A stretch of 25,978 nt of DNA from assembly GCA_900754745.1 (NCBI GenBank), contig CAAEEB010000036.1:1-25978 (forward strand). Reading direction: 5' to 3'. The stretch comes from an uncultured Collinsella sp. GTDB lineage: Bacteria; Actinomycetota; Coriobacteriia; Coriobacteriales; Coriobacteriaceae. Below are positions 90 through 23,548 of this stretch, one piece after another (position 1 is the stretch's first letter; every line of letters begins with the position of its first letter). The notes beneath the pieces are model-generated. The model was not told where the DNA came from, ran no database searches, and saw only the letters and a list, made by a program, of their open reading frames with translations. Both the position numbers and the translations under genes were made by a program.

Positions 90-971
90 ATGTCGAACAC
101 CATCCTTACACCCAACATCATCGCCAACGAGGCGCTGGACGTTCTGCGCACCAACGCCGTCATGGCAAACCTCGTCCACCGCGACTACTCCTCCGAGTTC
201 GTCGCAGGCGTGGGCGACACCATCACCGTCCGCAAGCCCGCCACCTTCGAGGCCAAGGAGTTCACTACCGAGGTCGAGGTGCAGGACGCCACGGAGGGCA
301 AGGTTCCCGTCAAGATGGACAAGCTGCTCGACGTGACGTTCGCCGTCACGTCCAAGGAGCTGACGATGGGCATCGTCGACTTCTCCGCACAGTTCCTCGT
401 CCCCGCGATGCAGGCCTTCGCCGACAAGATCGACGGCTACCTGCTCTCGCTCGAGAAGGACGTCACGAACCGCGTCGATCACGCCAAGGGCGCCATCGCC
501 GTTGCGGACATCATCGCCGCCCGCAAGTTCCTCGTGGACGCCAAGGCGCCCTCCACGGAGCGCCGCTTCGTCTACGGCTCCCAGGCCGAGGCTGACCTGC
601 TCAACACCGAGGCGTTTACCAACGCCTCCGCCGTCGGCGACAACGGCACCGCCCTCAAGGAGGCATCGCTCGGCCGCAAGTACGGCCTCGACTTCTACTG
701 CGACCAGAACGTGCAGAAGACCACGGCGGAGACGGCCAACTACACGCCGTCCATCGCGTTCCACAAGAACGCCTTCGCGCTCGTGACCCGCCAGCTCGAG
801 ATGCCGCTCGGCGCCCCCAAGGCGTTCTCAACCTCCTACGACGGCTTCGGCCTGCGCGTCGTGCAGGGCTACGACCAGAAGACCAAGACCGACACCGTCT
901 CCATCGACATGCTCTGCGGCGTCAAGACCCTCAGCCCCGAGCTCGCCGCCGTCATCACCGATAAGCGATAG
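90..971 (+). CDS. Major capsid protein, P22 coat (gp5)-like
   Basis: The protein has 293 residues. Its N-terminus (MSNTILTPNIIANEALDVLR, then a segment reading VGDTITVRKP) is typical of the P22 coat protein family, which builds the icosahedral shell on a HK97-type fold. The rest alternates beta-rich segments with the helical stretch around residues 110-170, without membrane segments. It lies between the probable scaffold and the head-tail connectors, the standard capsid position. The start at 90 is preceded by AAGGGG at 79-84. It is shorter than P22 coat itself (about 430 residues), as is common for family members in phages of Gram-positive bacteria. Confidence 0.87.
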   Translation: MSNTILTPNIIANEALDVLRTNAVMANLVHRDYSSEFVAGVGDTITVRKPATFEAKEFTTEVEVQDATEGKVPVKMDKLLDVTFAVTSKELTMGIVDFSAQFLVPAMQAFADKIDGYLLSLEKDVTNRVDHAKGAIAVADIIAARKFLVDAKAPSTERRFVYGSQAEADLLNTEAFTNASAVGDNGTALKEASLGRKYGLDFYCDQNVQKTTAETANYTPSIAFHKNAFALVTRQLEMPLGAPKAFSTSYDGFGLRVVQGYDQKTKTDTVSIDMLCGVKTLSPELAAVITDKR

Positions 972-979
972 GCGCAGAG

Positions 980-1396
980 ATGCTCGAGCAGGTGCTTCTG
1001 TCGCTGCGCAACTGGTTCGTCGCGGGCAAGTGCACGGGGCGCGTCCGCATCGGGGGCGGCCGCCTCGTGCCGCCCGCGGGGCTCGACCTCAAGGACGGCC
1101 AGTACATCCGCATCACGGGCTCGACATTCAACGACGGGCTGCACTCATGGCCCTACAACGGCCTCACGGACGAGGAGTTCGTCGGCACGGTCTGGGCGCT
1201 CGCCATCCCGCAGGCCGTGGTCGACCTCGCTGACGAGATCGCGGCGTGGCAGACCGAGCACGCCAAGGAGCTGGACAGCCCGTATGCATCCGAGAGCTTC
1301 GGCGGCTACAGCTACACGCGCGTCGGCGGCGACGGCTCGCCAATCACGTGGCGACAGCAGTTCAAGGCACGTCTCGACCCTTGGAGAAAGCTGTGA
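980..1396 (+). CDS. Head-tail connector (adaptor-like) protein
   Basis: The protein has 138 residues and lies immediately after the capsid gene, where siphoviruses encode the adaptor ring that binds below the portal. The N-terminal segment MLEQVLLSLRNWF is followed by a beta-rich part (GRVRIGGGRLVPPAGLDLKDG, residues about 20-40, and QYIRITGS) and a helical stretch VVDLADEIAAWQTEHAKEL near residue 80. The C-terminus (YSYTRVGGDGSPITWRQQFKARLDPW) resembles the ends of several phage connector proteins. Its stop overlaps the GTG start of the next gene. The ribosome binding site (GCAGAG) is weak, which suggests coupling to the capsid gene 8 nt upstream. The role is inferred from position and size. 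Confidence 0.6.
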   Translation: MLEQVLLSLRNWFVAGKCTGRVRIGGGRLVPPAGLDLKDGQYIRITGSTFNDGLHSWPYNGLTDEEFVGTVWALAIPQAVVDLADEIAAWQTEHAKELDSPYASESFGGYSYTRVGGDGSPITWRQQFKARLDPWRKL

Positions 1397-1746
1397 GCCG
1401 CCTGTACGAGCGCATGGCGGTGGCGTGCGCGAGGCTCGTCTCAAACACCGAGCCCGACGGCGAGGGCGGCTTCAAGACCGTCCTCGCCGTAGGCGACGGC
1501 TTCACGGCGGCGATTGTGCGCGACAGCTCGACGGCCTCGCGCATCGCGGAGCACGACGGCGTGAGGAACGTCTACACCGTGACCACCGACGAGCCGCTGC
1601 GGTACGGCGACCTCTTCCAGCGTGCGTTCGACGGGCAGGTATTCCGCTGCACGTCGAACGCGGACGACGGCGCCGCGCCGTGCTGCGCGTCGTTCAGCTT
1701 CGGCCAGTGCAGCGCGGAGGAGTGGGAGGTGCCGGATGGCGACTAA
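1393..1746 (+). CDS. Small head completion (stopper-like) protein
   Basis: I place the start at the GTG of 1393, which overlaps the previous stop (GTGA), giving 117 residues; an ATG seven codons on (1414) is the alternative. Upstream extensions of this frame only antisense-read or shadow the previous gene. The protein begins SRLYERMAVACARL and is then beta-rich with four Cys near its C-terminus (CTSNADDGAAPCCASFSFGQC). Four Cys in a small structural protein is unusual, but no regular zinc-knuckle spacing is seen. Position second after the capsid matches head-closure (stopper) proteins. No family is recognised from the sequence itself. Confidence 0.55.
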   Translation: MSRLYERMAVACARLVSNTEPDGEGGFKTVLAVGDGFTAAIVRDSSTASRIAEHDGVRNVYTVTTDEPLRYGDLFQRAFDGQVFRCTSNADDGAAPCCASFSFGQCSAEEWEVPDGD

Positions 1747-2104
1747 GGCGGCAGCGCTGCAGGCGTGGCTCGAGGGCTTCGGGCTGCCCGTGTACCGCGA
1801 CTCGGCGGTGCCGGGCGAGGCGAAGATGCCCTACATCACCTACGACCTGCCGACCGCGGCATTCGGCACGCAGTGCAACTCCGAGGTGAACCTCTGGTTC
1901 CGTACATCGTCCGAGGCCGCGCCCAACTCCAAGGCCGAGGAGGTCGCCCGGGCGTTGGGACTGTCGGGCGTGTTGCTGCCGTGCGACGGCGGCGGCATGT
2001 GGGTGATGCAGGGCGAGCCGTTCTGCAACGCCATGGCCGACGAGGACAACGCCGTGAAGCGCCGAATCATCAACCTGACCATTGAGTACATGACCAGCTA
2101 CTAG
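1736..2104 (+). CDS. Tail completion (terminator-like) protein
   Basis: The protein has 122 residues from the ATG at 1736, which overlaps the end of the preceding gene by 11 nt. It starts with a helix (ATKAAALQAWLEGFGLPVYR), followed by a YITYDLP strand and NLWFRTSSEAAPNSKAEEVARALG, and ends RRIINLTIEYMTSY. This alternation of one N-terminal helix, strands, and a long helix is typical of tail terminator or neck proteins that cap the tail tube and dock it to the head. It directly precedes the tail tube gene, as expected. The role is inferred from position, size and this pattern. Confidence 0.6.
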   Translation: MATKAAALQAWLEGFGLPVYRDSAVPGEAKMPYITYDLPTAAFGTQCNSEVNLWFRTSSEAAPNSKAEEVARALGLSGVLLPCDGGGMWVMQGEPFCNAMADEDNAVKRRIINLTIEYMTSY

Positions 2105-2112
2105 GAGGTCAT

Positions 2113-2682
2113 ATGTCTAAGTTCACGCGCATCCCCGAGAACACGTTCAAGGAGATCGTCATCAACGCGGGCCTGCTCGCCACGAATTTCAACCCCAAGA
2201 CCGCCGAGGTCGCGGAGTCCGAGCTGATGGGCGCGACGAGCGGCGGAACCAGCTTCGCCGCCACGCCCAGCTTCATCGACTACGGCGAGGGCATCGACAA
2301 CTGCCCCGCCAACACGATGGAGCTCAAGCGCATCGACAGCATCGAGGCCAAGCTGAGCGGCACCTTCGTAACGCTGAACACCGCGCTCGGCAAGAAGCTC
2401 GCAGCCGCAGCCGACGAGACCGAGGGGAAGATCGTCCCGCGCTCCGCGCTCTCGGAGGAGGACTTCGCCGATATCTGGCTCATCGGCGATTGCTCGGGCG
2501 AGAACGGCAACGGCTATATCGCCATCCGCCTCATCAACGCGCTCAACACGGGCGGTCTGCAAATCACGACGCAGAACAAGGCTAAGGGCCAGTTCGCGTT
2601 CGAGTTCACGGGCCACTACTCAATCAAGAACCCTGAGATCGTGCCCTACGAGCTGTATATCAAACAGGAGATTGGAGCCTAA
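2113..2682 (+). CDS. Major tail (tube) protein
   Basis: The protein has 189 residues and polymerises to form the tail tube, by gene order. A very strong ribosome binding site, AGGAGG at 2103-2108, overlaps the preceding stop and sits 4 nt before the ATG, fitting a protein needed in many copies. The sequence has an N-terminal strand region (FKEIVINAGLLATNFNP), a central charged loop and C-terminal strands (KGQFAFEFTGHYS, EIVPYELYIKQE) typical of Gram-positive siphovirus tube proteins. It is followed 2 nt later by the tail chaperone gene, which is the standard arrangement. Confidence 0.82.
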   Translation: MSKFTRIPENTFKEIVINAGLLATNFNPKTAEVAESELMGATSGGTSFAATPSFIDYGEGIDNCPANTMELKRIDSIEAKLSGTFVTLNTALGKKLAAAADETEGKIVPRSALSEEDFADIWLIGDCSGENGNGYIAIRLINALNTGGLQITTQNKAKGQFAFEFTGHYSIKNPEIVPYELYIKQEIGA

Positions 2683-2684
2683 CC

Positions 2685-3110
2685 ATGAAGATGGAGAACC
2701 TTAACGCCGACGAGTTCCAGAACGCCATGTGCCTGTTGGCGGACGTGGCGGAGGACGTCATGAACGGCGAACTCGGCGCAAAGGCAAAGGCCTCCTACGC
2801 CAAGTTCCGCTCCGACTCCGCCAAGGCCAAGGCCAAGGCGACCGCCAAGGCGAAGGGCGACCCCGAGGCCGCGAAAGCAGCCGCCACCGCCGAGGTCAAC
2901 GGCCTCGCTGTGGACATGGCGGCGGGTCTTCTGCCCGACGTGCTGCGCCAGGGCGGCGAGATCAGCTACAAGCTGCTCGCCGCACTCGACGGCCAGACGC
3001 TCGAGGAGTACAAGGCCGACTTCACCGTCAAGAAGTGGGTGAACGACATCAAGGATGCCATCGACGGCATCGACGGCATCAAGGACATCCTGGCTCCTTT
3101 TTTTGGATAG
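2685..3110 (+). CDS. Tail assembly chaperone, short form (gpG-like)
   Basis: The 141-residue protein lies between the tube and tape measure genes, where phages encode the chaperone that coats the tape measure during tail assembly. It is helical and lysine/alanine-rich in the middle (residues about 40-65, a run of KAK repeats). The C-terminus ends PFFG and stops with TAG at 3108-3110, directly after a run of seven T (3098-3104). The frame of the T run is T-TTT-TTT, a canonical slippery heptamer for -1 frameshifting, so some ribosomes should continue into the longer form ending at 3400. A GGAG site precedes the ATG. Confidence 0.82.
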   Translation: MKMENLNADEFQNAMCLLADVAEDVMNGELGAKAKASYAKFRSDSAKAKAKATAKAKGDPEAAKAAATAEVNGLAVDMAAGLLPDVLRQGGEISYKLLAALDGQTLEEYKADFTVKKWVNDIKDAIDGIDGIKDILAPFFG

Positions 3111-3400
3111 CCGCCGAGGACCCATCTCACATATGGCTCTGTCTGGGCGAGTACGTCGGGCCACGGCGTGCTCGCCCTTTCTCTAGGTACATGGTCGCGC
3201 GGTGGCGCGAGCGGGACGAGCGGGAGGCGTTCCGCGTGTACCTGAGCGAGTCGGTGCGCCTCATGGCGCAGGGGAAGTGGATCAAGGAGCCATTCCTGAG
3301 CGTCGTCAACGGGGGCGACAGGTCCGAGGCGGAGGACACGCGCAGCGGCGACGAGATCGCCGCAGACATCATCGAGCGGATGGGATTGAAGGTGGTCTAG
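2685..3400 (+). CDS. Tail assembly chaperone, frameshifted long form (gpGT-like)
   Basis: The frame that lies at -1 relative to the short chaperone is open past its stop and continues to TAG at 3398-3400. Slippage at T-TTT-TTT (3098-3104) would join 140 residues of the short form to 98 more beginning WIAAEDPSHIW, giving about 238 residues (join 2685-3104 with 3104-3400). The added part is charged and helical (RYMVARWRERDEREAFRVYL, then residues reading RLMAQGKWIKEPF), like T domains that bind the tape measure. The tape measure GTG begins right after its stop. An ATG at 3191 in the same frame could start the tail part alone, but it has no good ribosome binding site. Confidence 0.8.
3098..3104 (+). 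promoter_or_regulatory. Slippery heptamer for -1 ribosomal frameshift
   Basis: Seven T occupy the last two full codons of the short tail chaperone plus the preceding base, in phase as T TTT TTT. This fits the X XXY YYZ rule exactly. The zero-frame stop follows two codons later (3108-3110). The -1 frame is open for 98 codons. The slip direction and its place between tube and tape measure match the conserved frameshift of tailed phages. Confidence 0.85.
3145..3177 (+). other. Strong 14-bp hairpin inside the frameshifted chaperone extension
   Basis: The arm GGGCGAGTACGTCG (3145-3158) pairs with CGGCGTGCTCGCCC (3164-3177), two of the pairs being G-U, leaving a 5-nt loop. TTTCTCT follows. It lies 40 nt after the slippery site, farther than usual stimulators, and inside coding sequence of the T extension. 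It could be a weak terminator that lowers tape measure expression, a ribosome-pausing element, or chance in GC-rich DNA. Only the pairing is seen. Confidence 0.5.
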
Positions 3401-5824
3401 GTGAACCTTCTCGACCTGATGATTAAGGTCGGCCTCAAGGACGAGGCCAGCGGCAAGGCGGAGGGCGTGGCCTCGAAGGTCGTGGGCACGCTCGGCAAGG
3501 CCGGAGCGACCGTTGCCAAGGCGGTAGGCGTGGGCGTCGCCGCCGTGGGGGCGGGCGTCGCTGCCGTCACGGGCATGAGCATGAACGCATACGCCGCATA
3601 CGAGCAGAACGTCGGCGGCATCCAGAAGATATTCGGCAACATGGGCAAGTCCCTCGAGGACTACGCCGCCATGACCGGCCAGACCGTCGAGCAGTGCTCC
3701 GGTAAGTGGGAGCAGCTCGAGCAGGCCCAGACGACGGTGCTGGCCAACGCCGACCGCGCCTACATAACGGCCGGCCTGAGCGCCAACCGGTACATGGAGC
3801 AGGTGACGGGCTTCTCGGCCTCGCTCGTCAAATCGCTCGGCGGCGACACGGTCAAGGCCGCCGAGTACGCCAACACGGCAATGGTCGACATGAGCGACAA
3901 CGCGAATACCTTCGGCACGGCGATGGAGGACCTCCAGAACGCCTACCAGGGCTTCGCGAAACAAAACTACACGATGTTGGATAACTTGAAGCTCGGCTAC
4001 GGCGGCACCAAGGAGGAGATGCAGCGCCTCGTCAAGGATGCGCACGCCGTCAACTCCGCCGTGGATGAGTCGAGCCTGTCCTTCGACAACATCGTGCTAG
4101 CCATCCACACGATGCAGGAGCAGATGCAGATCGCCGGCACGACCTCGCGCGAGGCCGCGACGACCATCGAGGGCTCCTGCAACATGGCCAAGGCCGCCTG
4201 GGAGAACTGGGTGACGGAGCTGAGCAAGGACGACGCCGACATGGGCAAGCTCACCGAGGAGCTGTTACAGTCGGTCGAGACGGCGGCCTCAAACGTCGTC
4301 CCGCGCGTTGCGACCATCGTCGGCACGGCGTTGTCGCAGCTACCGAGCCTTGTCACGTCGGTCGGTCCCGTGCTCGGACAGGCGTTCGTCGACATTTTCA
4401 CGCAGGCGCTCGGCAGCGCGGCTGAGGCCGTGCCCGGGCCCATGGGCGACATCCTCTCCGCCGTGTCTGACGGCGTGGACGAGATCGGCGAGCGCTTCAA
4501 GGGCCTTGGCGAGATCTGGGCGGTTGGGGACAACCCGTTGGAGTCGCTGCACCTCGCCATGACCTACGGGCTGACGCTGCTCGACGGCGACCTGTCCACG
4601 CTGCAGGAGAACATCACCTCATCGCTGCCCGGCATCGCCGAGGGCTTCGCCGACGTGGGCGGCGAGATCGTTCCCAAGATCGCCGAGGGAATCGAGATGG
4701 GGCTGTCTTTCCTCTCCGAGACGGCGGCGTCGCTCATGACATCGCTCGGCGGCTACCTGTCCGAGAACCTGCCCTCCATCATGGAGAGCGGCCTGCAGAT
4801 TCTCACCGGTCTCTCCGAGTCCATAGCCGAGAACGTGGGCGTTCTGGCAGAGGGCGCGGCGAACCTCATCGTCGGCTTGGCGCAGGGTATCGCCGACAGC
4901 CTGCCGACGCTCATCGAGCAGGCCCCGGTCATCGTGCAGAACCTCGCCAGCGCGATCAACGACAACGCGCCGATACTGCTCGGTGCCGGCATCCAGGCAA
5001 TCGTGACGCTGGCGCTTGGCATCGTGCAGGCGATACCGACGCTCATAGCCAACATACCTGCAATCTTCTCGGCCTTCGTCTCAGCGTGGTCGGCGCTCGA
5101 CTGGCTGAGCCTCGGCCGCAACGCCATCACGTTCCTCGGCAACGGAATCGCGAACATGGCCGGCTTCGTGCGCACGTGCGGCACCAACATCGTGTCCGCC
5201 ATCCGCGGTGCCATCGCCAACCTGCCGGCGACGCTTGCCGGAATCGGGCGCAGCGGAATCAGCAGCCTCGGCTCAGCCATCAGCGGCGCGGTCGGCTTCG
5301 TGACCTCGGCTGCCGCCAATATCGGCAGCTCCATCGTGAGCGCCCTGGCGTCAATCCCGGGCCGCGTGGTCTCCATCGGCTCGCAAATCGTTCAGGGAAT
5401 CGCCAGTGGAATCAGCGGCGCGGCCGGCGTGGTCGTCAACAAGATAACCGGCGTGGTCGGCGGCGCCATCGACGCGGCCAAGAACCTGCTCGGCATCCAC
5501 TCGCCCTCGCGCGTGTTCCGCAAGATATTCGGCTACGTGATGCAGGGCGCGGCCCTCGGCATCGACGACACGGCGGACGAGCCGGTTAAGTCCATGAGGT
5601 CGGCGGTGCGCAACGTCGAGAAGGCCGCCGTGTTCGGTGTGAGCGTTACCGGCGGCGGAGCATACGGATCGACCGTCTACGGCGCCAGCGGCGTCGCGGG
5701 CGGCGGCAACGTTTACAACCTCTACCTCGACAGCGACCTGCTGGGCGTCGACGGGCGCGTGGCCTCCGCCTTCAGGAGCTTCGTCGCGGCGGTGGAGCAG
5801 AGCATGGCGATGGGGGTCGCGTAG
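3401..5824 (+). CDS. Tail tape measure protein
   Basis: The longest gene of the prophage encodes 807 residues from a GTG directly adjacent to the chaperone stop, with AAGGTGG upstream. The N-terminal part (about 1-60) is Ala/Gly/Val-rich and hydrophobic, then a region typical of tape measure proteins follows (YAAYEQNVGGIQKIFG near residue 66, then FSASLVKSLGGDTVKAAEYA). Residues about 530-690 are a long run of hydrophobic, Gly/Ala/Ile-rich helices. The segment LLGIHSPSRVFRKIFGYVMQ near residue 700 is a hallmark of the tape measure C-terminus. By the rough rule of 1.5 Angstrom per residue the tail would be about 120 nm. It sets tail length and may assist DNA entry. Confidence 0.92.
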   Translation: MNLLDLMIKVGLKDEASGKAEGVASKVVGTLGKAGATVAKAVGVGVAAVGAGVAAVTGMSMNAYAAYEQNVGGIQKIFGNMGKSLEDYAAMTGQTVEQCSGKWEQLEQAQTTVLANADRAYITAGLSANRYMEQVTGFSASLVKSLGGDTVKAAEYANTAMVDMSDNANTFGTAMEDLQNAYQGFAKQNYTMLDNLKLGYGGTKEEMQRLVKDAHAVNSAVDESSLSFDNIVLAIHTMQEQMQIAGTTSREAATTIEGSCNMAKAAWENWVTELSKDDADMGKLTEELLQSVETAASNVVPRVATIVGTALSQLPSLVTSVGPVLGQAFVDIFTQALGSAAEAVPGPMGDILSAVSDGVDEIGERFKGLGEIWAVGDNPLESLHLAMTYGLTLLDGDLSTLQENITSSLPGIAEGFADVGGEIVPKIAEGIEMGLSFLSETAASLMTSLGGYLSENLPSIMESGLQILTGLSESIAENVGVLAEGAANLIVGLAQGIADSLPTLIEQAPVIVQNLASAINDNAPILLGAGIQAIVTLALGIVQAIPTLIANIPAIFSAFVSAWSALDWLSLGRNAITFLGNGIANMAGFVRTCGTNIVSAIRGAIANLPATLAGIGRSGISSLGSAISGAVGFVTSAAANIGSSIVSALASIPGRVVSIGSQIVQGIASGISGAAGVVVNKITGVVGGAIDAAKNLLGIHSPSRVFRKIFGYVMQGAALGIDDTADEPVKSMRSAVRNVEKAAVFGVSVTGGGAYGSTVYGASGVAGGGNVYNLYLDSDLLGVDGRVASAFRSFVAAVEQSMAMGVA

Positions 5825-5825
5825 T

Positions 5826-8012
5826 ATGGCGCAGGGAAACTGGGTTCAAGGCAGAGGCGCTTACGGCCTGTACTGCTGGTGCGCGTACGTGGACGTTGCT
5901 GAGGTTGGGCGTACCGACACCACGGTGACCTACCGTGTCACGCACGGCTACGGCACGCGCTACGCCATCGACTGCTACGCAAACGGCAGCTCGTCGGCGG
6001 GCGGCTCGTGGAACGGCTCGGTATACTCGACGAACAACTCCGACTGGGTATGGGTGCAGTGCACGTCGCGCGACGTCGAGCTCGCGCGCGGCAACGGCGA
6101 CGCCTACAACCACACCTTCACGGGCCAGATTAACGTCACGGGCGGCTTCGGCAACGGAACGTCCAACGCCTCCAATACCGTCACGGTCCCGTGCCGTGCC
6201 TACCACACGCCGCACACGCCGAAGAACATCAGGGCGGAGCGCCTGAGCGACACCAGCGCGAAGGTCAGCTGGGACGTCGACTACACGGGCATGAACGGCG
6301 ACTACCCCTGGTCGACCGTGACCGTCGGCGTGGTGAAGAACGTCCCGGGGAAGTTCACCGACGTCGGCACCGTCAGTTGGGATACCACGAGCCACACCTA
6401 CAACGGCCTCGAGCCGGGCTGCATGTATATCTTCTCTGCCAAGGCGACGGGCCCCGGCGGCACGTCGGACTACGGCGTGAGCGCGCCGGCGATCTACACC
6501 ACGCCGACGGCGCTCGGCATGCTCGAGGCCGTCAAGGCGGAGGCGGCGAAGGTCGTGCTCAAGGGGCACGACGCACCGGCCTTCGTCGACAGTTGGGAGT
6601 TCCAGCTCACGACCGACGGTGGAAAGACGTGGGTCGATGCGGACGTAAACGCCTCTTGGGAGGACGAGGAGGCACCGGCGGGTACGGTGCGCTACCGTGC
6701 CCGCGCGGTCAAGAGCGGCCTCAAGGGTCCGTGGACGGAGTCAAACGAGGTCACGACAATATGCCCGCCGTTGGCCCCGTCTATCAAGGGCGTGTCTGTG
6801 GCATATGCCACGGGCACGAAAGCCTCGGTCGAATGGGTGCCGAACCATCCAGACGGCTCGACGCAGACCTCGGCAGAAGTTGAGATCACGACCCCTGCAG
6901 GTCCAGTGACCGCTGAGGTCGAGGGAACGACCACACGCCATACGCTGCCGACAGACACCAAGGGTACATATAAGGTACGCGTGCGCACCAAGGGCCTCGA
7001 CGAGGATTGGGGCGCTTGGTCGAGCGCGGTCGCCTATACCGTGGCGGACGCGCCGCAGGCGTATTTCACCGATCCGGCGCAGGATTGGGCAACACTTCAC
7101 TCGGTGCCACACATGTTCATATGGGAGATCAACGACGAGACGGGTGTCAGCCGCCAACAGCTGGTGCTTTACGACATTCACAACAACCAACTGTGGGCTG
7201 GTGTGCTGGACAAGGACGTGCGCTCGTTTAACCTCGGTTATGCGCAGCACGCTTTCGTCAATCACGAGGCCTATAGGGTCGTACTTATTGTCACGGCTGG
7301 CTCGTCGCTATCGGTCGCCGCCTCGAGAAACTTCCAGACCGATTGGACGCCTCCGGCAAAGCCGTCGCTCAACGTGTTCGTTGACGATAGGCTCGGCTGC
7401 CAGTTGGCGGTATTCCCGGGCGCACCGGAGAGCGAGGACACGCCTGACACGGACTACTTCACCGTATCGCGCGTCCTTCCCGATGGTTCAACCCTGCAGC
7501 TGGGGTCGCACCTCACGGCAGGCGAGGGCGCTGGCGACCCGTTGCCACCGCTCAATTCGGAGTTCGAGTACGTTGCCGTCGCCTACGCCGCCACGGGGGT
7601 CAGCTCGACGACGCGGGTCAAGACGACCGTGGCGAGCCGTGCGGTGGCGTTCAACTGGGGCGCTGGCGCGGAGAGGTCGTGGCTGGGACGTTACCTTAAG
7701 GACGGTTCGAGCCGCAAGGTGACGCATGGCTATGAGATGCTGCATTTCGCCGACGGCGGCGACGGCCTGCCCGTCTCGTACGGAATCAACGAGAGGGACG
7801 TCAAGGACAGCATGAACTTCCTGCTGCTCGACGAGGCGGACTACAAGGCCTTCCTCGAGATTATGGACACGGCGGGACGCTTCTGGGTGCGCGACCTGTA
7901 CGGCGCGAGGTTCCGCGCTCGCCTCGGTTGCAGCGTGAAGCGTTCGAGTGGCGCATGGGTGGCTTCTTGCGACCCGACGTGGGAGACATGGGAGGAACCA
8001 GCTAATGGCTGA
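5826..8012 (+). CDS. Tail protein with fibronectin type III-like repeats
   Basis: The protein has 728 residues and follows the tape measure by one nucleotide. An aromatic and Gly/Ser/Asn-rich beta domain (about 1-125) is followed by a series of FN3-like modules: about 131-227 (begins TPKNIRAERLSDTSAKVSWD), 231-313, 318-410, and two less clear ones to about 610. A distinct C-terminal domain (about 620-728) is globular and has no recognisable motif. FN3 modules in tail proteins are thought to help adhesion to carbohydrate or cell surface. The position is that of a distal tail or tail-tip protein. The stretch about 6780-7500 uses more A/T-ending codons than either side, hinting at module exchange. 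Confidence 0.75.
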   Translation: MAQGNWVQGRGAYGLYCWCAYVDVAEVGRTDTTVTYRVTHGYGTRYAIDCYANGSSSAGGSWNGSVYSTNNSDWVWVQCTSRDVELARGNGDAYNHTFTGQINVTGGFGNGTSNASNTVTVPCRAYHTPHTPKNIRAERLSDTSAKVSWDVDYTGMNGDYPWSTVTVGVVKNVPGKFTDVGTVSWDTTSHTYNGLEPGCMYIFSAKATGPGGTSDYGVSAPAIYTTPTALGMLEAVKAEAAKVVLKGHDAPAFVDSWEFQLTTDGGKTWVDADVNASWEDEEAPAGTVRYRARAVKSGLKGPWTESNEVTTICPPLAPSIKGVSVAYATGTKASVEWVPNHPDGSTQTSAEVEITTPAGPVTAEVEGTTTRHTLPTDTKGTYKVRVRTKGLDEDWGAWSSAVAYTVADAPQAYFTDPAQDWATLHSVPHMFIWEINDETGVSRQQLVLYDIHNNQLWAGVLDKDVRSFNLGYAQHAFVNHEAYRVVLIVTAGSSLSVAASRNFQTDWTPPAKPSLNVFVDDRLGCQLAVFPGAPESEDTPDTDYFTVSRVLPDGSTLQLGSHLTAGEGAGDPLPPLNSEFEYVAVAYAATGVSSTTRVKTTVASRAVAFNWGAGAERSWLGRYLKDGSSRKVTHGYEMLHFADGGDGLPVSYGINERDVKDSMNFLLLDEADYKAFLEIMDTAGRFWVRDLYGARFRARLGCSVKRSSGAWVASCDPTWETWEEPANG

Positions 8013-9573
8013 TAACTGGATAAGGCCGTTCGATGCCTCCTACGACTTCGTGCGCGTGTCGCGCGAAACGATGCTCGAGCTCGACTTTGTGCGCGACATC
8101 AAGAACGGTGGCACCATCGAGCGCAACTCGAACACGGCGCTCTACGAGACGGCATCGCTGGACTTCGCCGACAGGTTCGACGTGGGCAACGACTACCTGC
8201 GCGTGTACCTCAATGCTGTGTTCACGGACGCAAGCAAGAAACGCGAGTGCCTGGGGACGTTCATGCCGCAGGTGGACTCGGTAGACATTGATGGCGCTTA
8301 CCGCGAAGGGCAGATCAATGCCTACGGCCTCTTGAAGCGGCTCAAGGACGACGACTTCGACGGCCCGTACGTGATTGTGGCAGACAGCAATATCGTTGAT
8401 GAGGCCGTGAAGATTGCCGAATCGGTCGGCCTCACCGTCTACGCCGACCCATGCACCCTTCTTCTCGGCAGCACCTTGGTGTTCGGCGTCGGCAAGAACA
8501 ACGAGGTCAAGACCAAGCTGGATGCCGTGAACTTCCTCCTGAAGATGGCGGGGTTCAGGTCGGCCATGACCGACCGCATGGGCAACGTGCATTTCAGGCG
8601 CTACGTCGAGCCTGCGGATATGCCGATCTCGGCGGAGTTCACCGAGGGCAAGGATGCGCGTTTTATGCCGGACATGACCGACTCGACCAACCGTGCCGAG
8701 GTCTGCAACGTGGTACACGTGGACTTCAGCACGCAGGACGCCTCGGTGCGAGGCACGGCGATAGACGACTCGCCCGATTCCGAGCTGTCGACGGTTTCGG
8801 TCGGGCGCCGCATCGTCAAGGGCTACAGCTACGACAGCTTGCCGGGTGTGGACACCGAGGACAGCAACCTCATCGAGGGCGCCGCCAATGCCCTTATCGG
8901 CGTCGGTACGAAGCAGGATAAGAACTTCCGTCAAAGCGACAACCATGGCTCCATCTCAACCGTGTACGTCCCCGATTCTCCGCAAACGGGCGTGCTCTTT
9001 GGCATCAAGATTGCGAGCAACGGCGGACGCATCGGCTTTTGTCAGGACAAAACCGGCTCGCTCGACAAGGGCAAGCCGATTACGCATAGCTTATGGATCA
9101 AGGGCACAAAAGGTGCCCGCGTGAGTATGCAGGCATGGTGGGTGCCGTCATTATCAGCCGGTCCTCACCTGCATTACTGGACGCTTACCGGCGAGTGGCA
9201 GCACCTCGTCGCAACCGAGACCCCCGCGGACGACTACCGCGACGTTTCCGCCGGGTACGTGTACCTCGAGGCTGGCGGCGAGGCCATCGTCGTCGCAGAT
9301 AAGGTCGAGGAGGGCAGCGCGGCGACGCCATGGCCGCAGGACGCGATGCAGGCGGCGGCAGACCGCAAGGCGGCTGAGCTGCTTGCGACCGAGCGCTCCG
9401 TGACCCGAACTGCAGTTTTCAAGAGCGTTTACAAGCCCATCGAGCCGTGCATGGCGGTAGCGATGAACTACAAGACGGGCGGGGTGGTCGGCAAGTTGGC
9501 AATCCAAAAGCAGACGCTGACGCTCGATGCGGCCTGTGTCATTAAGCACACGGCGAGGAGGTATGAGCGATGA
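8005..9573 (+). CDS. Tail hub / tip protein with carbohydrate-binding-like insertion
   Basis: The start is the ATG at 8005, eight nt inside the previous gene and preceded by GGAGGAACC, giving 522 residues. The N-terminal half (1-290, beginning MADNWIRPFDASYDFVRVSR, with LETASLDFADR-like strands and a YGLLKRLKDD segment) resembles baseplate hub proteins of Gram-positive phages. Residues about 290-445 look like a jelly-roll carbohydrate-binding domain: NLIEGAANALIGVGTKQDK at its start, then ITHSLWIKGTKGARVSMQAW, LTGEWQHLV, and VEEGSAATPWPQD at its end, a pattern common in phage tail CBM_4_9-type modules. The remainder (450-522) returns to the hub-like fold. No catalytic motif is seen. It probably caps the tail and binds surface glycan. 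Confidence 0.65.
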   Translation: MADNWIRPFDASYDFVRVSRETMLELDFVRDIKNGGTIERNSNTALYETASLDFADRFDVGNDYLRVYLNAVFTDASKKRECLGTFMPQVDSVDIDGAYREGQINAYGLLKRLKDDDFDGPYVIVADSNIVDEAVKIAESVGLTVYADPCTLLLGSTLVFGVGKNNEVKTKLDAVNFLLKMAGFRSAMTDRMGNVHFRRYVEPADMPISAEFTEGKDARFMPDMTDSTNRAEVCNVVHVDFSTQDASVRGTAIDDSPDSELSTVSVGRRIVKGYSYDSLPGVDTEDSNLIEGAANALIGVGTKQDKNFRQSDNHGSISTVYVPDSPQTGVLFGIKIASNGGRIGFCQDKTGSLDKGKPITHSLWIKGTKGARVSMQAWWVPSLSAGPHLHYWTLTGEWQHLVATETPADDYRDVSAGYVYLEAGGEAIVVADKVEEGSAATPWPQDAMQAAADRKAAELLATERSVTRTAVFKSVYKPIEPCMAVAMNYKTGGVVGKLAIQKQTLTLDAACVIKHTARRYER

Positions 9574-9827
9574 GCGATTCAGCGACCGAGATCAAGGGCG
9601 CTGCGGCGCGGCTGGCGGCGGCGATGCCGTCTGGCGGAAAGCGCCTGACGGTGGAGTTCGGCACGGTCGTTGGCGTACACGACACGTCGCTCGATGTGCT
9701 GCTGCACGGCACGGTGGTGACGGTCCCGATGGTGCGCTCCTGCACGGGGTGCATCATCACCGACCGTGCGGTGATTCTGTCGCAGGGTCCGCTGGCCGTG
9801 TGCGTCGGCACGATGGCGGCGGTGTAG
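9570..9827 (+). CDS. Small OB-fold-like tail or spike protein
   Basis: An 85-residue protein whose ATG overlaps the hub stop (ATGA). From residue about 27 it shows alternating beta strands (VEFGTVVGVHDTSLDVLLHG, then TVVTVPMVRS, then RAVILSQGPLAVCVGTMA), the pattern of the OB-fold domain of phage spike and puncturing proteins. The N-terminal 25 residues are Ala-rich and helical. It follows the hub directly, so a role at the tail tip is likely. Function is inferred from fold pattern and position. Confidence 0.5.
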   Translation: MSDSATEIKGAAARLAAAMPSGGKRLTVEFGTVVGVHDTSLDVLLHGTVVTVPMVRSCTGCIITDRAVILSQGPLAVCVGTMAAV

Positions 9828-9850
9828 GCCGGCGTTACGGGGGCCCGAAC

Positions 9851-9888
9851 CTGCAATGTGGCGGGGAATGGGCCCCACCACACTGCAG
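9851..9888 (+). other. Long imperfect hairpin between tail and lysis genes
   Basis: In the 78-nt gap before the lysis cassette, CTGCAATGTGGCGGGG (9851-9866) pairs with CCCCACCACACTGCAG (9873-9888), 14 of 16 positions, with a 6-nt loop. No T run follows, so it is not a standard terminator. It ends about 8 nt before the ribosome binding site (GGGAGG, 9896-9901) of the next gene. It may be a processing, stability or translation-timing element. Confidence 0.5.
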
Positions 9889-9905
9889 AACGGAAGGGAG
9901 GCCGG

Positions 9906-10319
9906 ATGGAGGTACTCAAGCTCTTCGTGCCGTACGGACCGGCTTGGCTTGGAGGCGTGCTTCTGGCGCTTATTGCCGTTTACTTTGGGCGTCAGTTTCT
10001 CGCCGAATACAAGCTGCAGAACGAGCGCAAGGCGAATCTCGACCTGAAGCGCGAGGAGCGAAAGCAGGCCGAGGTGGACGAGCGGGCGCAGCGCGACCGT
10101 GAGCGATCACAGATGGAAGGCCGCATCGCAGCCCAGATGGAGCGCAGCAACACCTTGATTGAGGGGATGAAGACCCTCATGGAGTCGGTCGTTGCGTCAA
10201 ATGACGTGCTGCACGCCGACCTGGTCCACAGCCAGGCGCGCAGCCAGGGGATGGCCGAGAAGGTCGACCACATCTACGACCGCGTCGACCTCATGTACAA
10301 CAAGGAGACAAGCAGATAG
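9906..10319 (+). CDS. Membrane-anchored coiled-coil protein of the lysis cassette
   Basis: I start at the ATG of 9906, four nt after GGGAGG; a GTG at 9858 is possible but lies inside the hairpin and has no ribosome binding site. The 137-residue product has one membrane helix (about 10-28: YGPAWLGGVLLALIAVYFG), then a highly charged coiled coil (about 33-135) rich in Arg, Glu and Gln. Such single-TM, coiled-coil proteins (XhlA-like) commonly sit beside the holin. A role in holin function or in spanning to the cell wall is plausible. It is directly followed by the holin gene. Confidence 0.6.
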   Translation: MEVLKLFVPYGPAWLGGVLLALIAVYFGRQFLAEYKLQNERKANLDLKREERKQAEVDERAQRDRERSQMEGRIAAQMERSNTLIEGMKTLMESVVASNDVLHADLVHSQARSQGMAEKVDHIYDRVDLMYNKETSR

Positions 10320-10329
10320 GAGCAATCAA

Positions 10330-10635
10330 ATGACTGAGATTCAGGCCGGCCTCACCGTCGCCACGGTGCTCGTGGTGCCGTACATCGTGCAGGCCATCAA
10401 GACTAAGGCCATGACGGGCAGCGTCGCCCGCTGGACGGCTATCGCCGTCTCGGCGGGGTGCGGCGCCCTCACGGCCATGGCGGGAGGCGTGCCCACCGAC
10501 CCCTCGGCGTGGGTGACGTCCATCTTCGCGTGTGTCGGCGGCGTGCAGGTGGCCTATGCCGCCTTCAAATCCGTCGGTATCACGGACAAATGGCTCGACG
10601 CGCTGCTCGCGCTCGGCGACATCAAGGAGGACTAA
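10330..10635 (+). CDS. Holin
   Basis: A 101-residue protein with three hydrophobic segments (about 6-24, 33-53 and 60-79) and a charged C-terminus (DKWLDALLALGDIKED). Holins form membrane lesions that release the endolysin at lysis time. The start at ATG 10330 is preceded by AGG at 10318-10321 and is 11 nt after the previous stop; the frame upstream only overlaps the coiled-coil gene. The lysin begins 2 nt after the stop. Size, topology and position fit a holin of a Gram-positive phage. Confidence 0.75.
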   Translation: MTEIQAGLTVATVLVVPYIVQAIKTKAMTGSVARWTAIAVSAGCGALTAMAGGVPTDPSAWVTSIFACVGGVQVAYAAFKSVGITDKWLDALLALGDIKED

Positions 10636-10636
10636 C

Positions 10637-11710
10637 ATGGCAGATTTCGCGAACGTCCAACCGGACGAGTACAAGCTCCTCGGCTGCAACTTCTCGGCGG
10701 GACGACCCTTCGGCATCAAGGGCGTCACGATCCACCATATGGCGGGTGACCTCAATGCGGCCCAGTGCAACAGCATCTGGGCCGCCAACGGCTGCTCTGC
10801 CCACTACTCGGTCGACCGCAACGGCTACATCGTGCAGCACGTCAACGACACCGACCGCGCCTACGCTTGCGGCGACGGCATCGGCACGGGCGGCGGCAAC
10901 GACACGACCATCAGCATCGAACACGCCAACAGCGCGCGCGGCCCGTGGACGGTTCACGAGGCCGCTATCGAGAGCGGTGCGCACCTCGTGGCGGCGCTGT
11001 GCCTGTACTACGGGCTGGGCCGCCCGGCATGGATGGTGAACGTGTTCCCGCACAAGCACTGGTCGTCCACGGCCTGCCCCGGCGAGCTGGCTGGCTCGCA
11101 GCGCGACCACTACATGCAGCGCGCCGTCGAGTGGTACGACGCGATGGTCGGCGGCGCGCAGCCGTCCGCGCCGACTGTGCAGCCCGCGGCGACCCCCGCT
11201 GCGCCTTCGGCGTCGCAGGGCGCGCCGGGCGGTTTCCCTCGCTCCACTGGCGCCCGTGTTCCCGTACACTACTCGCTGCACCTTAAGGGTGGCGGCTGGC
11301 TGGACGAGGTGACTGACTTCGGTGCCGGCGACGACGGCTTCGCGGGCTACCCGTGCCGACAGCATGACCTCCTTTGCGCCCGAGTTGATCGCGGTACGCT
11401 CAAGTATCAGGTCCACACCGTCGAGGACGGCTGGCTCGACTGGGTCGCCAAGGGCGACCGCAACGACACCGTAAACGGCTGCGCCGGTATCGCCGGTCAT
11501 ACCATCGACGGCGTGCGCATGTACTACGTGACGCCGAGCGGCGAGGAGTACAAGCAGGCGTGGTACCGCTCCCAGACCACTGCGCGCGCCGGATGGCTGA
11601 ACACCGTGTGCGACGACGGCTCTACCTATAGCGGCGACGACTACGCCGGTATCTACGGCGAGCCGCTCGACCGTCTGCAGGTCTGCGTCACCGACGGGGT
11701 GCCGTGGTAA
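10637..11710 (+). CDS. N-acetylmuramoyl-L-alanine amidase (endolysin)
   Basis: The start at ATG 10637 is preceded by AAGGAGG at 10624-10630. The 357-residue enzyme cleaves the amide bond between muramic acid and the peptide stem. Its N-terminal amidase-2 domain (about 1-165) shows GVTIHHMAGD with the ligand His at 33/34, SAHYSVDRNGYIVQHV, and HKHWSSTACPGEL with His139 and Cys147 spaced as in T7 lysozyme; Thr145 replaces the T7 lysine. A Pro/Ala-rich linker (about 172-200) leads to a C-terminal region (about 205-357) with repeated GWLDxV motifs (GGGWLDEV, DGWLDWV, AGWLNTV), resembling cell-wall binding repeats. No signal peptide is visible, as expected for a holin-dependent lysin. Confidence 0.9.
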   Translation: MADFANVQPDEYKLLGCNFSAGRPFGIKGVTIHHMAGDLNAAQCNSIWAANGCSAHYSVDRNGYIVQHVNDTDRAYACGDGIGTGGGNDTTISIEHANSARGPWTVHEAAIESGAHLVAALCLYYGLGRPAWMVNVFPHKHWSSTACPGELAGSQRDHYMQRAVEWYDAMVGGAQPSAPTVQPAATPAAPSASQGAPGGFPRSTGARVPVHYSLHLKGGGWLDEVTDFGAGDDGFAGYPCRQHDLLCARVDRGTLKYQVHTVEDGWLDWVAKGDRNDTVNGCAGIAGHTIDGVRMYYVTPSGEEYKQAWYRSQTTARAGWLNTVCDDGSTYSGDDYAGIYGEPLDRLQVCVTDGVPW

Positions 11711-21360: not shown

Positions 21361-21634
21361 AAAAGCGCGCCTTTCGTTTCGAAATTGTTTCAGACGTTAT
21401 AACCACCAACTAGTAGTCGAGCGTATTTTCGCAGGATTGGCGCGTATTTGCACCATGATTCACAAAGTAATGAAAAAACTTTTCAGAAATTTGAATTTGT
21501 CGCTTGTGCAGCGGGCACTTTAGCGTAATATAGCGACCATCGAAAACGGAGGCGGAAAAACAGCCGTTTACCGAGGAATAGGTACCGTTTACGATATATG
21601 AATTGCGCCCGGCGATATGCGAAAGGAGAGGCAG
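21361..21634. other. Intergenic region between the HAD gene and the argG leader
   Basis: This AT-richer stretch is flanked by divergent genes and carries the HAD promoter candidate (minus TATAAC, 21396-21401) and the argG promoter candidate (plus, 21504-21531). Past the likely transcript start there are small potential hairpins, for example AAACGG with CCGTTT near 21545-21571. I see no ArgR-like box strong enough to call. A minus-strand open frame runs through it but shows no coding pattern. Confidence 0.5.
21504..21531 (+). promoter_or_regulatory. Promoter candidate of the argG leader transcript
   Basis: TTGTGC (21504-21509) and TAATAT (21526-21531) are separated by 16 nt and resemble sigma-70 -35 and -10 boxes. 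Transcription would start near 21538, about 97 nt before the leader peptide and 375 nt before argG. A small inverted repeat, GTGC/GCAC (21506-21518), overlaps the -35 side and might be an operator. Confidence 0.55.
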
Positions 21635-21709
21635 ATGCAGTTCGTACAGATCATCACCACTGCAGACAATGCCATCCGACGCCAGCGCGCAATTTCCCGA
21701 CGACGATAA
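21635..21709 (+). CDS. Arginine-rich leader peptide of argG (attenuator leader)
   Basis: The ORF of 24 codons has a strong ribosome binding site (AAAGGAGAGG, 21622-21631). The first half reads MQFVQIITTADNAI; the rest is RRQRAISRRR. Six of its last ten residues are Arg, encoded CGA CGC, CGC and three consecutive CGA just before TAA at 21707-21709. CGA is usually a slowly read codon. An Arg-rich short peptide ahead of an arginine-synthesis gene, followed by competing hairpins, is the pattern of ribosome-mediated attenuation: stalling at Arg codons when Arg-tRNA is scarce would favour antitermination. It has no other apparent function. Its existence is directly readable; its regulatory role is inference. 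Confidence 0.8.
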   Translation: MQFVQIITTADNAIRRQRAISRRR

Positions 21710-21819
21710 CAATCGTCTCTGTCCGCATGGGGCTCTTGCCTCAACAGAGTCATTTTGAGGTCGTTGGGTTTTAGCACGACATTGCTGCATGTTTCTAGGG
21801 CATGTATGTGCTGATTTTT
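21702..21819 (+). promoter_or_regulatory. Putative arginine attenuator, competing hairpins and terminator
   Basis: Pairings seen by eye: GACGAT (21702-21707) with ATCGTC (21712-21717), overlapping the last Arg codons and the leader stop; CTCTGT (21717-21722) with ACAGAG (21744-21749), enclosing GGGGC/GCCTC (21729-21742); CCTCAA (21739-21744) with TTGAGG (21755-21760), excluding the previous one; GTCGT (21760-21764) with ACGAC (21776-21780); and a final stem AGCAC (21773-21777) plus ACAT (21779-21782) with ATGT (21802-21805) plus GTGCT (21808-21812), followed by TTTTT at 21815-21819. The last stem looks like the terminator and excludes GTCGT/ACGAC. The chain of exclusions can link leader translation to termination. 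Confidence 0.6.
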
Positions 21820-21913
21820 GCTATTTAACCTGATATTGCACGGTATTTGACCTCAGAGTGACTTGCAACTGACCGATGTTCTAACTAGCTACCAAGGGCG
21901 AAAGGAAACAGCC

Positions 21914-23140
21914 ATGAGCAAGAAAAAAGTCGTTCTCGCATATTCCGGTGGTCTTGATACATCCGTATGTGTCAAGTGGCTTCAGGACGAGAAGAATCTC
22001 GATGTCGTTTGTGTCTGCGGTAATGTGGGCCAGGAAGAGACCGGCCTGGATGCCAAAAAGCAGAAGGCCCTCGACCTGGGCGTTTTGGACTGCCAGGTGC
22101 TCGACCTGCGCGATGAGTTCTCTGATGAGTTCCTGACCAAGGCCATCGCCGCCAACTCCATGTACGAGAACAAGTACCCGCTGCTCTCCGCTCTTTCTCG
22201 TCCGCTGCTTGCCAAGAAGCTCGTCGAGGTTGCCCACGAGTTCGGCGCCACCTATGTCGCCCATGGCTGCACCGGTAAGGGCAACGACCAGGTCCGTTTT
22301 GAGGCTGCCGTCAAGGCCCTCGATCCCGAGCTCAAGGTTATCGCCCCGGTTCGTGAGTGGGATCTGAAGTGCCGTCCGGACGAGGTCGCCTACGCCCACG
22401 CCCACAACGTGCCGGTCCCCGAGGGTGCCAACGACAACCCCTATTCCATCGACGACAACCTGTGGGGTCGTGCCATCGAGTGCGGTCACCTGGAGGATCC
22501 CTGGAACGAGCCGCTCGACGACGCCTGGGTTATGACTAAGAACCCCGAGGACACGCCCGACACCCCGACCTACACCGAGATCGAGTTCGAGGCCGGCAAG
22601 CCCGTCGCCGTCGACGGCAAGAAGATGAAGCTTTCCGAGATCGTCATCGCCCTCAACAAGATCTCTGGCGACAACGGCTTTGGTCGTCTGGACCTGGTCG
22701 AAGATCGTCTGGTGGGCCTCAAGAGCCGCGAGTGCTACGAGGTTCCCGGTGCACTGACGCTCATCACCGCCCACAAGGCGCTCGAGGACATCTGCGTCGA
22801 GGGCGACCTGCTCAAGACCAAGATCAAGCTCGAGCAGGATTGGGCCACCGCCGTGTACAACGGCCAGTGGTACAGCCCGCTCAAAAACGCGCTCGACGCG
22901 TTTATGGCCGACACCCAGAAGTTCGTGACCGGCACTGTCCGTCTGAAGTTCTTTAAGGGCAACTGCCACGTCGTCGGCCGCAAGAGCCCGTTCAGCCTTT
23001 ATGACTACGGTCTGGCCACTTACGACCGCGACACCACGTTTGACGAGAAGGCCAGCGCCGGCTTCATTGAGATCGACACGCTGTCGCTCAAGACGTGGGC
23101 TAAGGTGCAGGGTCCCAGCTCCGCTGCCGCCCAGGCGTAA
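21914..23140 (+). CDS. argG: Argininosuccinate synthase
   Basis: The 408-residue enzyme joins citrulline and aspartate with ATP to form argininosuccinate, the next-to-last step of arginine synthesis. The start at ATG 21914 is supported by AAAGGA (21901-21906); the frame extends upstream without a better start. The ATP loop AYSGGLDTSV (9-18) is perfect, and VAHGCTGKGNDQVRFE, ANDNPYSIDDNLWGRAIE, and the tail with KFFKGNCHVVGRKSPFSLYDYGLATY are family marks. The expression is probably controlled by the Arg leader upstream. argH is nearby, but separated by 528 bp that hold hairpins and a small ORF, so a single transcript is not certain. Confidence 0.97.
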   Translation: MSKKKVVLAYSGGLDTSVCVKWLQDEKNLDVVCVCGNVGQEETGLDAKKQKALDLGVLDCQVLDLRDEFSDEFLTKAIAANSMYENKYPLLSALSRPLLAKKLVEVAHEFGATYVAHGCTGKGNDQVRFEAAVKALDPELKVIAPVREWDLKCRPDEVAYAHAHNVPVPEGANDNPYSIDDNLWGRAIECGHLEDPWNEPLDDAWVMTKNPEDTPDTPTYTEIEFEAGKPVAVDGKKMKLSEIVIALNKISGDNGFGRLDLVEDRLVGLKSRECYEVPGALTLITAHKALEDICVEGDLLKTKIKLEQDWATAVYNGQWYSPLKNALDAFMADTQKFVTGTVRLKFFKGNCHVVGRKSPFSLYDYGLATYDRDTTFDEKASAGFIEIDTLSLKTWAKVQGPSSAAAQA

Positions 23141-23276: not shown

Positions 23277-23327
23277 GCCGCACCTGCGGCTGAGTCCGAG
23301 CCCCGCCGGGGTTGTCCGGCGGGGCTC
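23277..23327 (+). terminator. GC-rich hairpins, probable argG terminator
   Basis: GAGCCCCGCCGG (23298-23309) pairs perfectly with CCGGCGGGGCTC (23316-23327), 12 bp with a 6-nt loop. A smaller stem, GCCGC (23277-23281) with GCGGC (23286-23290), precedes it. TTGCTATC follows, which is not a good T run, so termination may be partial. If partial, it would set the argG to argH ratio. Confidence 0.5.
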
Positions 23328-23377: not shown

Positions 23378-23548
23378 ATGTTCAACGCTATCGCCCGTGC
23401 CCTGCTCGCCCTTGCCCCCGAGCTCGATACTGCCAAGGTCGAGGATATTCCCATGAGCCTGAAGGCTTGGATCGACGGTTCGCAGGGCAACCTCAGGAGG
23501 GAGTCGATGGGCGCCAAGTGCCAGGTGCGTCACTTCTTCGCTATTTAG
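23378..23548 (+). CDS. Hypothetical 56-residue protein between argG and argH
   Basis: The ORF starts at ATG 23378 with AGGAG at 23365-23369, a good ribosome binding site at normal distance, and ends at TAG 23546-23548. Codons of its first 40 residues mostly end in G or C and use GCC, CTC, GAG and ATC as the neighbouring genes do, which supports real coding. It begins MFNAIARALLALAPELDTAK and ends CQVRHFFAI; the N-terminus could be an amphipathic helix. I recognise no family. It lies in the argG-argH gap and ends 120 bp before argH. It might be a regulatory or metabolic small protein. Confidence 0.6.
   Translation: MFNAIARALLALAPELDTAKVEDIPMSLKAWIDGSQGNLRRESMGAKCQVRHFFAI

Follow-up and report, generated by a model that had tools for sequence, protein, structure and literature searches.

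The window, that is, the whole 25,978-nt stretch of DNA that was analysed, carries the arginine-synthesis gene argG, with a short Arg-rich open reading frame (ORF) ahead of it and argH behind it:

21526 to 21531, + strand: candidate -10 (TAATAT), with a possible -35 (TTGTGC) at 21504-21509, both putative
21624 to 21631, + strand: Shine-Dalgarno sequence of the leader peptide, AGGAGAGG, invariant in the 16 aligned rows of the window's lineage
21635 to 21709, + strand: leader peptide ORF of 24 codons, MQFVQIITTADNAIRRQRAISRRR followed by the stop
21914 to 23140, + strand: argG, argininosuccinate synthase, over the cut-offs of NCBIfam TIGR00032 and NF001770
23669 to 25099, + strand: argH, argininosuccinate lyase, downstream of argG, from the ORF list and a family match

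Leader sequences were sorted by eye, without a tree, into five sequence groups: W (the window's lineage), T (C. tanakaei-like and others), P, R and E (Enorma). Among the rows printed, the candidate -10 was present in 11 of 12 from the W lineage (L003 was the exception), and 7 of 7 from the T clade had TATAGT at its position. A generic promoter scan of the window found none. A palindrome-like sequence, TGAAAAAACTTTTCA, lies at 21471-21485, 5' of the putative argG promoter, is the same in 11 of the 12 W-lineage rows printed, and is possibly an operator, perhaps of ArgR. Between argG and argH, a strong GC inverted repeat (AGCCCCGCCGG..CCGGCGGGGCT, 23299-23326) and a 56-codon ORF starting MFNAIARALLALAPE (23378-23548) were seen by eye; positions 90-11710 resemble a prophage module in the ORF list, with long tail-like ORFs and a lysin-like ORF at 10532-11710.

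Read directly in the sequence, the leader ORF begins with ATG at 21635 and ends with TAA at 21707-21709, 204 nt before argG. Its Arg codons stand at positions 15, 16, 18, 22, 23 and 24 (CGA CGC. CGC ... CGA CGA CGA). The ribosome site, the 24-codon ORF, the Arg positions and the stop agreed exactly with the initial annotation, and so did its final stem followed by TTTTT (stem 21773-21812, TTTTT 21815-21819, argG ATG at 21914). The segment 21698-21826 folded with a z of -2.66 (5 of 200 shuffles equally stable). Frames with a stop-adjacent RRR and at least six Arg in the last ten codons occurred three times in the window, both strands counted; in 100 dinucleotide shuffles of the window their mean number was 0.19 and the maximum 1. 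Because the window has two other such frames, Arg density alone is only suggestive, and it is conservation that decides whether the leader is real.

The comparison genome nearest to the window (G001) had 36% of sampled words in common with it. A peptide profile (E ≤ 0.001) detected the leader C-terminus in 47 of 65 genomes of the family, in one copy each, and all 47 matches lay, by coordinates, on the same strand as argG and within about 420 nt 5' of it. argG itself was present in 62 of the 65 genomes, and stood without a leader detected by the profile in 14 genomes of three other family genera and in G025. Within the genus, the leader was found in 39 of 43 genomes (E < 1e-6), which corresponds to 39 of the 40 argG-bearing genomes and 0 of the 3 without an argG match; the remaining argG-bearing genome was G025 (locus L016). 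In L016, argG is 85% identical to that of the window, and unrelated sequence lies upstream instead of the leader. Class-wide, the leader occurred in 41 of 296 genomes and 3 of 124 genera, all of the Collinsella family, and the 14 leader-bearing named loci belong to Collinsella, Enorma, Candidatus Limicola and an uncultured Coriobacteriaceae. A pattern scan of genome contigs returned 320 stretches, 14 of them confirmed by tblastn and all of these upstream of argG; short peptides of the W type are probably present among the other 306.

In a set of 51 argG upstream regions (the window and L001-L050), the core RR[QR]R[AT]I[SA]RRR followed by the stop was present in 34 and missing in 17, namely L016 and 16 regions from other families of the order. 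In an open scan for Arg-rich stop-adjacent frames, every same-genus row except L016 (34 of 35) had RRR and a stop 5' of argG, and none of the 16 rows from other families had the core. The conserved run of regulatory codons by the stop was also present in L078. In two rows of the neighbouring genus g22 (L089 and L094), a different ORF ends in RICALPRRR (CCC CGA CGA CGA and then the stop), and its stop codon lies 187 nt upstream of argG in L089 and 188 nt upstream in L094; it is possibly a diverged version of the same leader, and ORFs of this LPRRR type were not seen in the other fetched rows of genera g21-g23. Alignment with relatives, which had been proposed at the outset as a check, found the ORF, Arg codons, stop position and pairings kept across them.

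CGA accounted for 2 of the 217 Arg codons (0.9%) in ten window genes and for four of the six Arg codons of the leader. In a 37-codon alignment of 22 species, the ten core codons had 483 synonymous and 0 non-synonymous single-nucleotide pairwise differences (37% synonymous expected); these pairwise counts lack independence, and part of the zero follows from the choice of rows, since the core pattern used to pick the 22 rows allows few amino-acid changes. The synonymous fraction in the N-terminal 27 codons was 0.40 vs. 0.27 expected. All 22 rows had a GTG, TTG or ATG start at a constant distance from the stop and no in-frame stop between, and the N-terminus was different in the window's lineage. 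Core amino-acid exchanges in the open scan were Q/R, A/T and S/A only, and L078, missed by the core pattern, adds S/T. Five of the ten third positions of the core were invariant, which fits an extra RNA constraint on the CGA run. In many T, P and E leaders GGCATGGC...GCCATC was noticed by eye in the middle of the ORF, and it is absent in the window's lineage; it could form a hairpin, which may explain part of the N-terminal conservation. The comparison shows conservation of the ORF, its core and its codons, and the ribosome site together with the codon pattern suggests that the ORF is translated. As in ribosome-mediated attenuators, a short and presumably translated ORF lies upstream of a gene in the pathway of the same amino acid, with a conserved run of regulatory codons near its stop.

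The RNA from the end of the leader ORF to the argG start contains the following elements:

21696 to 21707, + strand: element A, CCCGACGACGAT, the last Ser-Arg-Arg-Arg codons plus the stop's first base; strand 1, complementary to C in every clade, with a register that differs between them
21712 to 21717, + strand: element A', ATCGTC, forming in the fold a local hairpin with 21702-21707 round the stop codon
21717 to 21749, + strand: hairpin B, CTCTGT (21717-21722) with ACAGAG (21744-21749) and inner GGGGC:GCCTC, from folds
21747 to 21762, + strand: element X, GAGTCATTTTGAGGTC; strand 2, overlapping B and C
21760 to 21768, + strand: element C, GTCGTTGGG, with nine pairs to A at 21696-21704 (z -4.0 in the window)
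21773 to 21819, + strand: hairpin T with U5 tail, candidate terminator of the window's lineage, -11.8 kcal/mol
21827 to 21834, + strand: element E, AACCTGAT, pairing in the fold with 21763-21770 inside X:X'
21849 to 21864, + strand: element X', GACCTCAGAGTGACTT; strand 3, covarying with X
21900 to 21916, + strand: Shine-Dalgarno sequence and start codon of argG; strand 4 of the switch wherever there is a helix S, which is supported outside the window's lineage only and mainly in the T clade

Helix statistics were calculated for 30 of the 40 leader sequences, ten near-identical W rows being dropped. Element C was complementary to A in all five groups with differing letters (GTYGGG in W and T, ATATCGTCGAGGG and variants in P, TTCGTCGAG(G/T)A in R, GTCGTCG in E). 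Compared with dinucleotide-shuffled C regions, A:C reached p ≤ 0.05 in 14 of 30 sequences (W 6/6, P 4/6, R 2/4, E 1/3, T 1/11). Judged by eye, A:A' complementarity was kept in most sequences, and hairpin B had compensated pairs between clades. X:X' formed 16 of 16 pairs in 15 of 16 W genomes despite changes of X' at several places, and its first nine pairs were complete and ungapped in 23 of 30 sequences, with several pair types per column. Its own-partner mean energy was equalled or bettered in 0 of 5000 partner permutations, and in 4 of 5000 within clades, with a fixed wide X region (an earlier self-fitted X start was misplaced in L017). In 29 of the 30 sequences X' ended 28-49 nt before the argG start; in L022 it ended 96 nt before it. 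Element E appeared as AACYYGAT in 8 of 11 T-clade rows, and there was further structure downstream of hairpin T. When X was searched broadly for duplexes with any part of the last 110 nt, 10 of 29 sequences reached p ≤ 0.05; long pairings elsewhere blurred this result, and targeted tests took its place.

Because X overlaps them, the A:C/B hairpin and X:X' are mutually exclusive, and as in ribosome-mediated attenuators one of the exclusive helices lies over the regulatory codons (A:C, taken alone, with p ≤ 0.05 in 14/30). The comparison shows A-C complementarity, X:X' covariation and their exclusivity by overlap. The earlier proposal of at least four mutually exclusive stems was right in kind, and the comparison shifts the weight among them to A:C, X:X' and, outside W, S. 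A:C, X:X' and S were all present in L077 and L078, where they were located by Enorma-type anchors and without a shuffle control. With Rfam covariance models, no family reached its gathering score on the window.

X' is also the 5' arm of a hairpin predicted to bury the argG Shine-Dalgarno sequence and start (helix S; T-clade example, GCUCAU..GGUUCC....GGAACU...AUGAGC). Compared with shuffled 5' arms, S reached p ≤ 0.05 in 14 of 30 sequences (T 10/11, P 3/6, R 1/4), and was unsupported in the window's lineage (0/6, mean z +0.3) and in E (0/3). Own vs. swapped partners gave little signal (86/2000 overall, 42/2000 within clades), as is to be expected when the argG ribosome-binding site (RBS) is almost invariant. 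Support for S comes from the shuffled 5' arms and from single cases such as L035, where GCCCA replaces GCUCAU and so matches the argG start ATGGGC, and for the T clade the comparison argues for the helix. Removing X' increased the unpaired fraction of the argG Shine-Dalgarno sequence by at least 0.05 in 21 of 30 sequences and decreased it by as much in 1, a test in which the shorter folded RNA favours a rise.

The effect of the ribosome's position was predicted with equilibrium folds. With the ribosome at the stop, expected X:X' pairs increased by more than 1 in 13 of 30 sequences and decreased by more than 1 in 0; with the ribosome on the first stop-proximal Arg codon, the response was mixed, with an increase of more than 1 pair in 8 of 30 and a decrease of that size in 3 (L060, L034, L035). 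A is hidden equally by a ribosome at the stop and by one on the Arg codons. In most rows, moving the ribosome made little difference to how open the argG Shine-Dalgarno sequence and start were predicted to be. The full leader of the window preferred A:A' plus X:X' at equilibrium even with A exposed, so that an off state would have to be kinetic. Throughout W, the full leader preferred X:X' in nearly all rows whatever the ribosome position; A:C there can therefore act only during transcription, before X' is made.

Taken together, the locus probably carries a functional, conserved arginine leader-peptide attenuator, and the preferred reading is a cis-acting, ribosome-operated arginine attenuator of argG, with a probability of about 0.62 (lowered from 0.66 because of the mixed ribosome-position result). 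We infer its polarity, and its dependence on tRNA charging, to be as follows. When charged tRNA-Arg is scarce, the ribosome would wait on CGA CGA CGA by the leader stop and cover strand A; X would be freed to pair with X', and X:X' would take X' away from the helix that closes the argG RBS, so that argG would be translated. When arginine is plentiful, the ribosome would leave, A:C would form and lock X away, and the free X' would close the argG start, most clearly in the T clade and partly in P, R and E. In the window's lineage the last step would probably be different, the first switch acting on hairpin T (U5) or on an undetected RBS structure.

Stalling on Arg codons had been proposed in the initial annotation as a means of antitermination. 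A ribosome that frees an alternative helix fits the anatomy described above, and the question is whether the output is an intrinsic terminator, as in a classical transcription attenuator. There, A:C would be helix 1:2, C with the 5' arm of T would be 2:3 and T with its U5 tail would be 3:4; arginine shortage would block T and RNA polymerase would read into argG. In the window, the predicted probability of hairpin T was 0.19 with A exposed and 0.03 with A hidden. Across six W rows it was 0.19-0.38 when the ribosome stood on the first Arg cluster and 0.00-0.24 when it hid A (positions from the Ser codon to the stop), and it decreased in the classical sense in 5 of 6, hardly in L004. These decreases favour the classical scheme, as do the runs of at least four T after the hairpin in 13 of 16 W genomes and the good U tract of the hairpin after C in 5/6 P rows and 4/4 R rows. 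However, T is weak and its U5 stem was not flagged by a generic terminator scan, the U tract is lacking in 3 of the 16 close relatives, and X', which lies downstream of T, would be unneeded for pure termination at T. In P, a GC stem with a U tract barely responded to the ribosome in 4 of 5 rows (the exception, L032, responded classically, from 0.83 to 0.25-0.35). In R, a U6 stem uses C itself (C:D hairpin); its predicted probability was 0.00-0.52 when the first two Arg codons were occupied by the ribosome, 0.43-0.95 when A was hidden and 0.03-0.86 without a ribosome, which would mean termination under starvation, the opposite polarity. With P barely responsive, R reversed and the tails mostly poor in T and E, hairpin T was not taken as the conserved output, and a classical attenuator appears doubtful as an account of the leader. 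A terminator as universal output was rejected on T probability vs. ribosome position in 23 sequences, a set that did not include L022, L059-L063 or the E clade. The intrinsic terminator was not upheld as a general mechanism, since the hairpin is weak, P mostly neutral and R reversed, and the T-clade chain ends at the argG RBS. In the window's own lineage, the terminator (the weak U5 hairpin) is the best candidate output, and the output of the attenuator seems to be clade-dependent.

The sensor could also be the nascent peptide, its RRQRAISRRR tail arresting the ribosome at the stop in response to arginine, in the manner of the fungal arginine attenuator peptide. Such a role would agree with A, I and S being kept at the amino-acid level while third positions vary, and with the constant start-to-stop distance, free of in-frame stops, in 22/22 rows; it is made quite improbable by the Q/R, A/T, S/A and S/T exchanges (L021, L026, L078), by the different N-terminus in the window's lineage, and by the polarity proposed above, under which arrest at high arginine would turn argG on, which is wrong for a biosynthetic gene. 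A regulator made of RNA structure (Rho-, RNase- or protein-directed), in which the ORF would only keep ribosomes on or off the RNA, is very improbable: helices beyond A:C are conserved and there is more structure downstream of T, but six Arg codons, the use of rare CGA and the occurrence of the leader only beside an arginine gene would be left unexplained. A composite sensor is rather unlikely; it would join a tRNA-charging readout on rare CGA with a peptide-level role, in which the conserved AIS-RRR tail would make the termination step slow or tune it to arginine, and the four-strand switch would be a single ancient design that acts on the argG ribosome site in some Collinsella lineages and on a terminator in others, its output having moved between the two.

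Bacterial arginine synthesis is textbook ArgR territory, and the initial annotation had set a peptide-coded attenuator against this usual control. No such contrast was found: of the 43 genus genomes, 42 have an ArgR homologue and 37 have ArgJ, so the leader occurs alongside ArgR. The fungal arginine attenuator peptide also combines arginine, a short upstream peptide and an arginine-synthesis gene, but acts by eukaryotic nascent-chain arrest at high arginine and involves no RNA switch.

The nearest known system in operation is the Salmonella speF leader orf34. The part of PMC6386406 available describes a short leader ORF with consecutive Arg codons, in which ribosome pausing at low arginine selects the mRNA fold, and a structure that sequesters the RBS of the downstream gene; it differs in that the target is ornithine decarboxylase and not arginine synthesis, Rho and RNase G are involved, the sensing codons are 12-13 with the stop-adjacent Arg codon not needed, and the peptide belongs to the DUF2618 family. 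Two leader peptides from the present set had no Pfam match at E ≤ 1, DUF2618 (PF10940) included. S. aureus rbfL, according to the excerpt of PMC13009471, likewise has a leader peptide with rare Arg codons and a translational output, but there the downstream RBS is blocked directly by the ribosome that has paused, expression goes down, and the target is a biofilm regulator. The actinobacterial trp, ilvB, leuS, cys and leuA attenuators share regulatory codons in a short leader ORF and competing hairpins, and the LEU element of leuA has its codon run paired with the Shine-Dalgarno box; no arginine gene is among those described in the available text of PMC1262725, and in the article as a whole 'argG' occurs 0 times and 'arginine' twice, outside that text. 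In some attenuators, according to the accessible portion of PMC9413887, the terminator is replaced by an RBS-sequestering structure. Collinsella is mentioned once in PMC8040213, for a motif upstream of L7/L12, and is not mentioned in PMC8632094. An arginine-coded attenuator of argG was named in no title or abstract opening found in the open-licence literature.

With a peptide-coded attenuator on one of its genes, conserved in three genera and coexisting with an ArgR homologue, arginine synthesis would join the pathways that are read in this way. As the helices covary while the output seems clade-specific, these leaders would offer a natural series on how attenuators shift between translational and transcriptional control. 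Collinsella is a common gut genus, and the finding bears on arginine sensing by a commensal.
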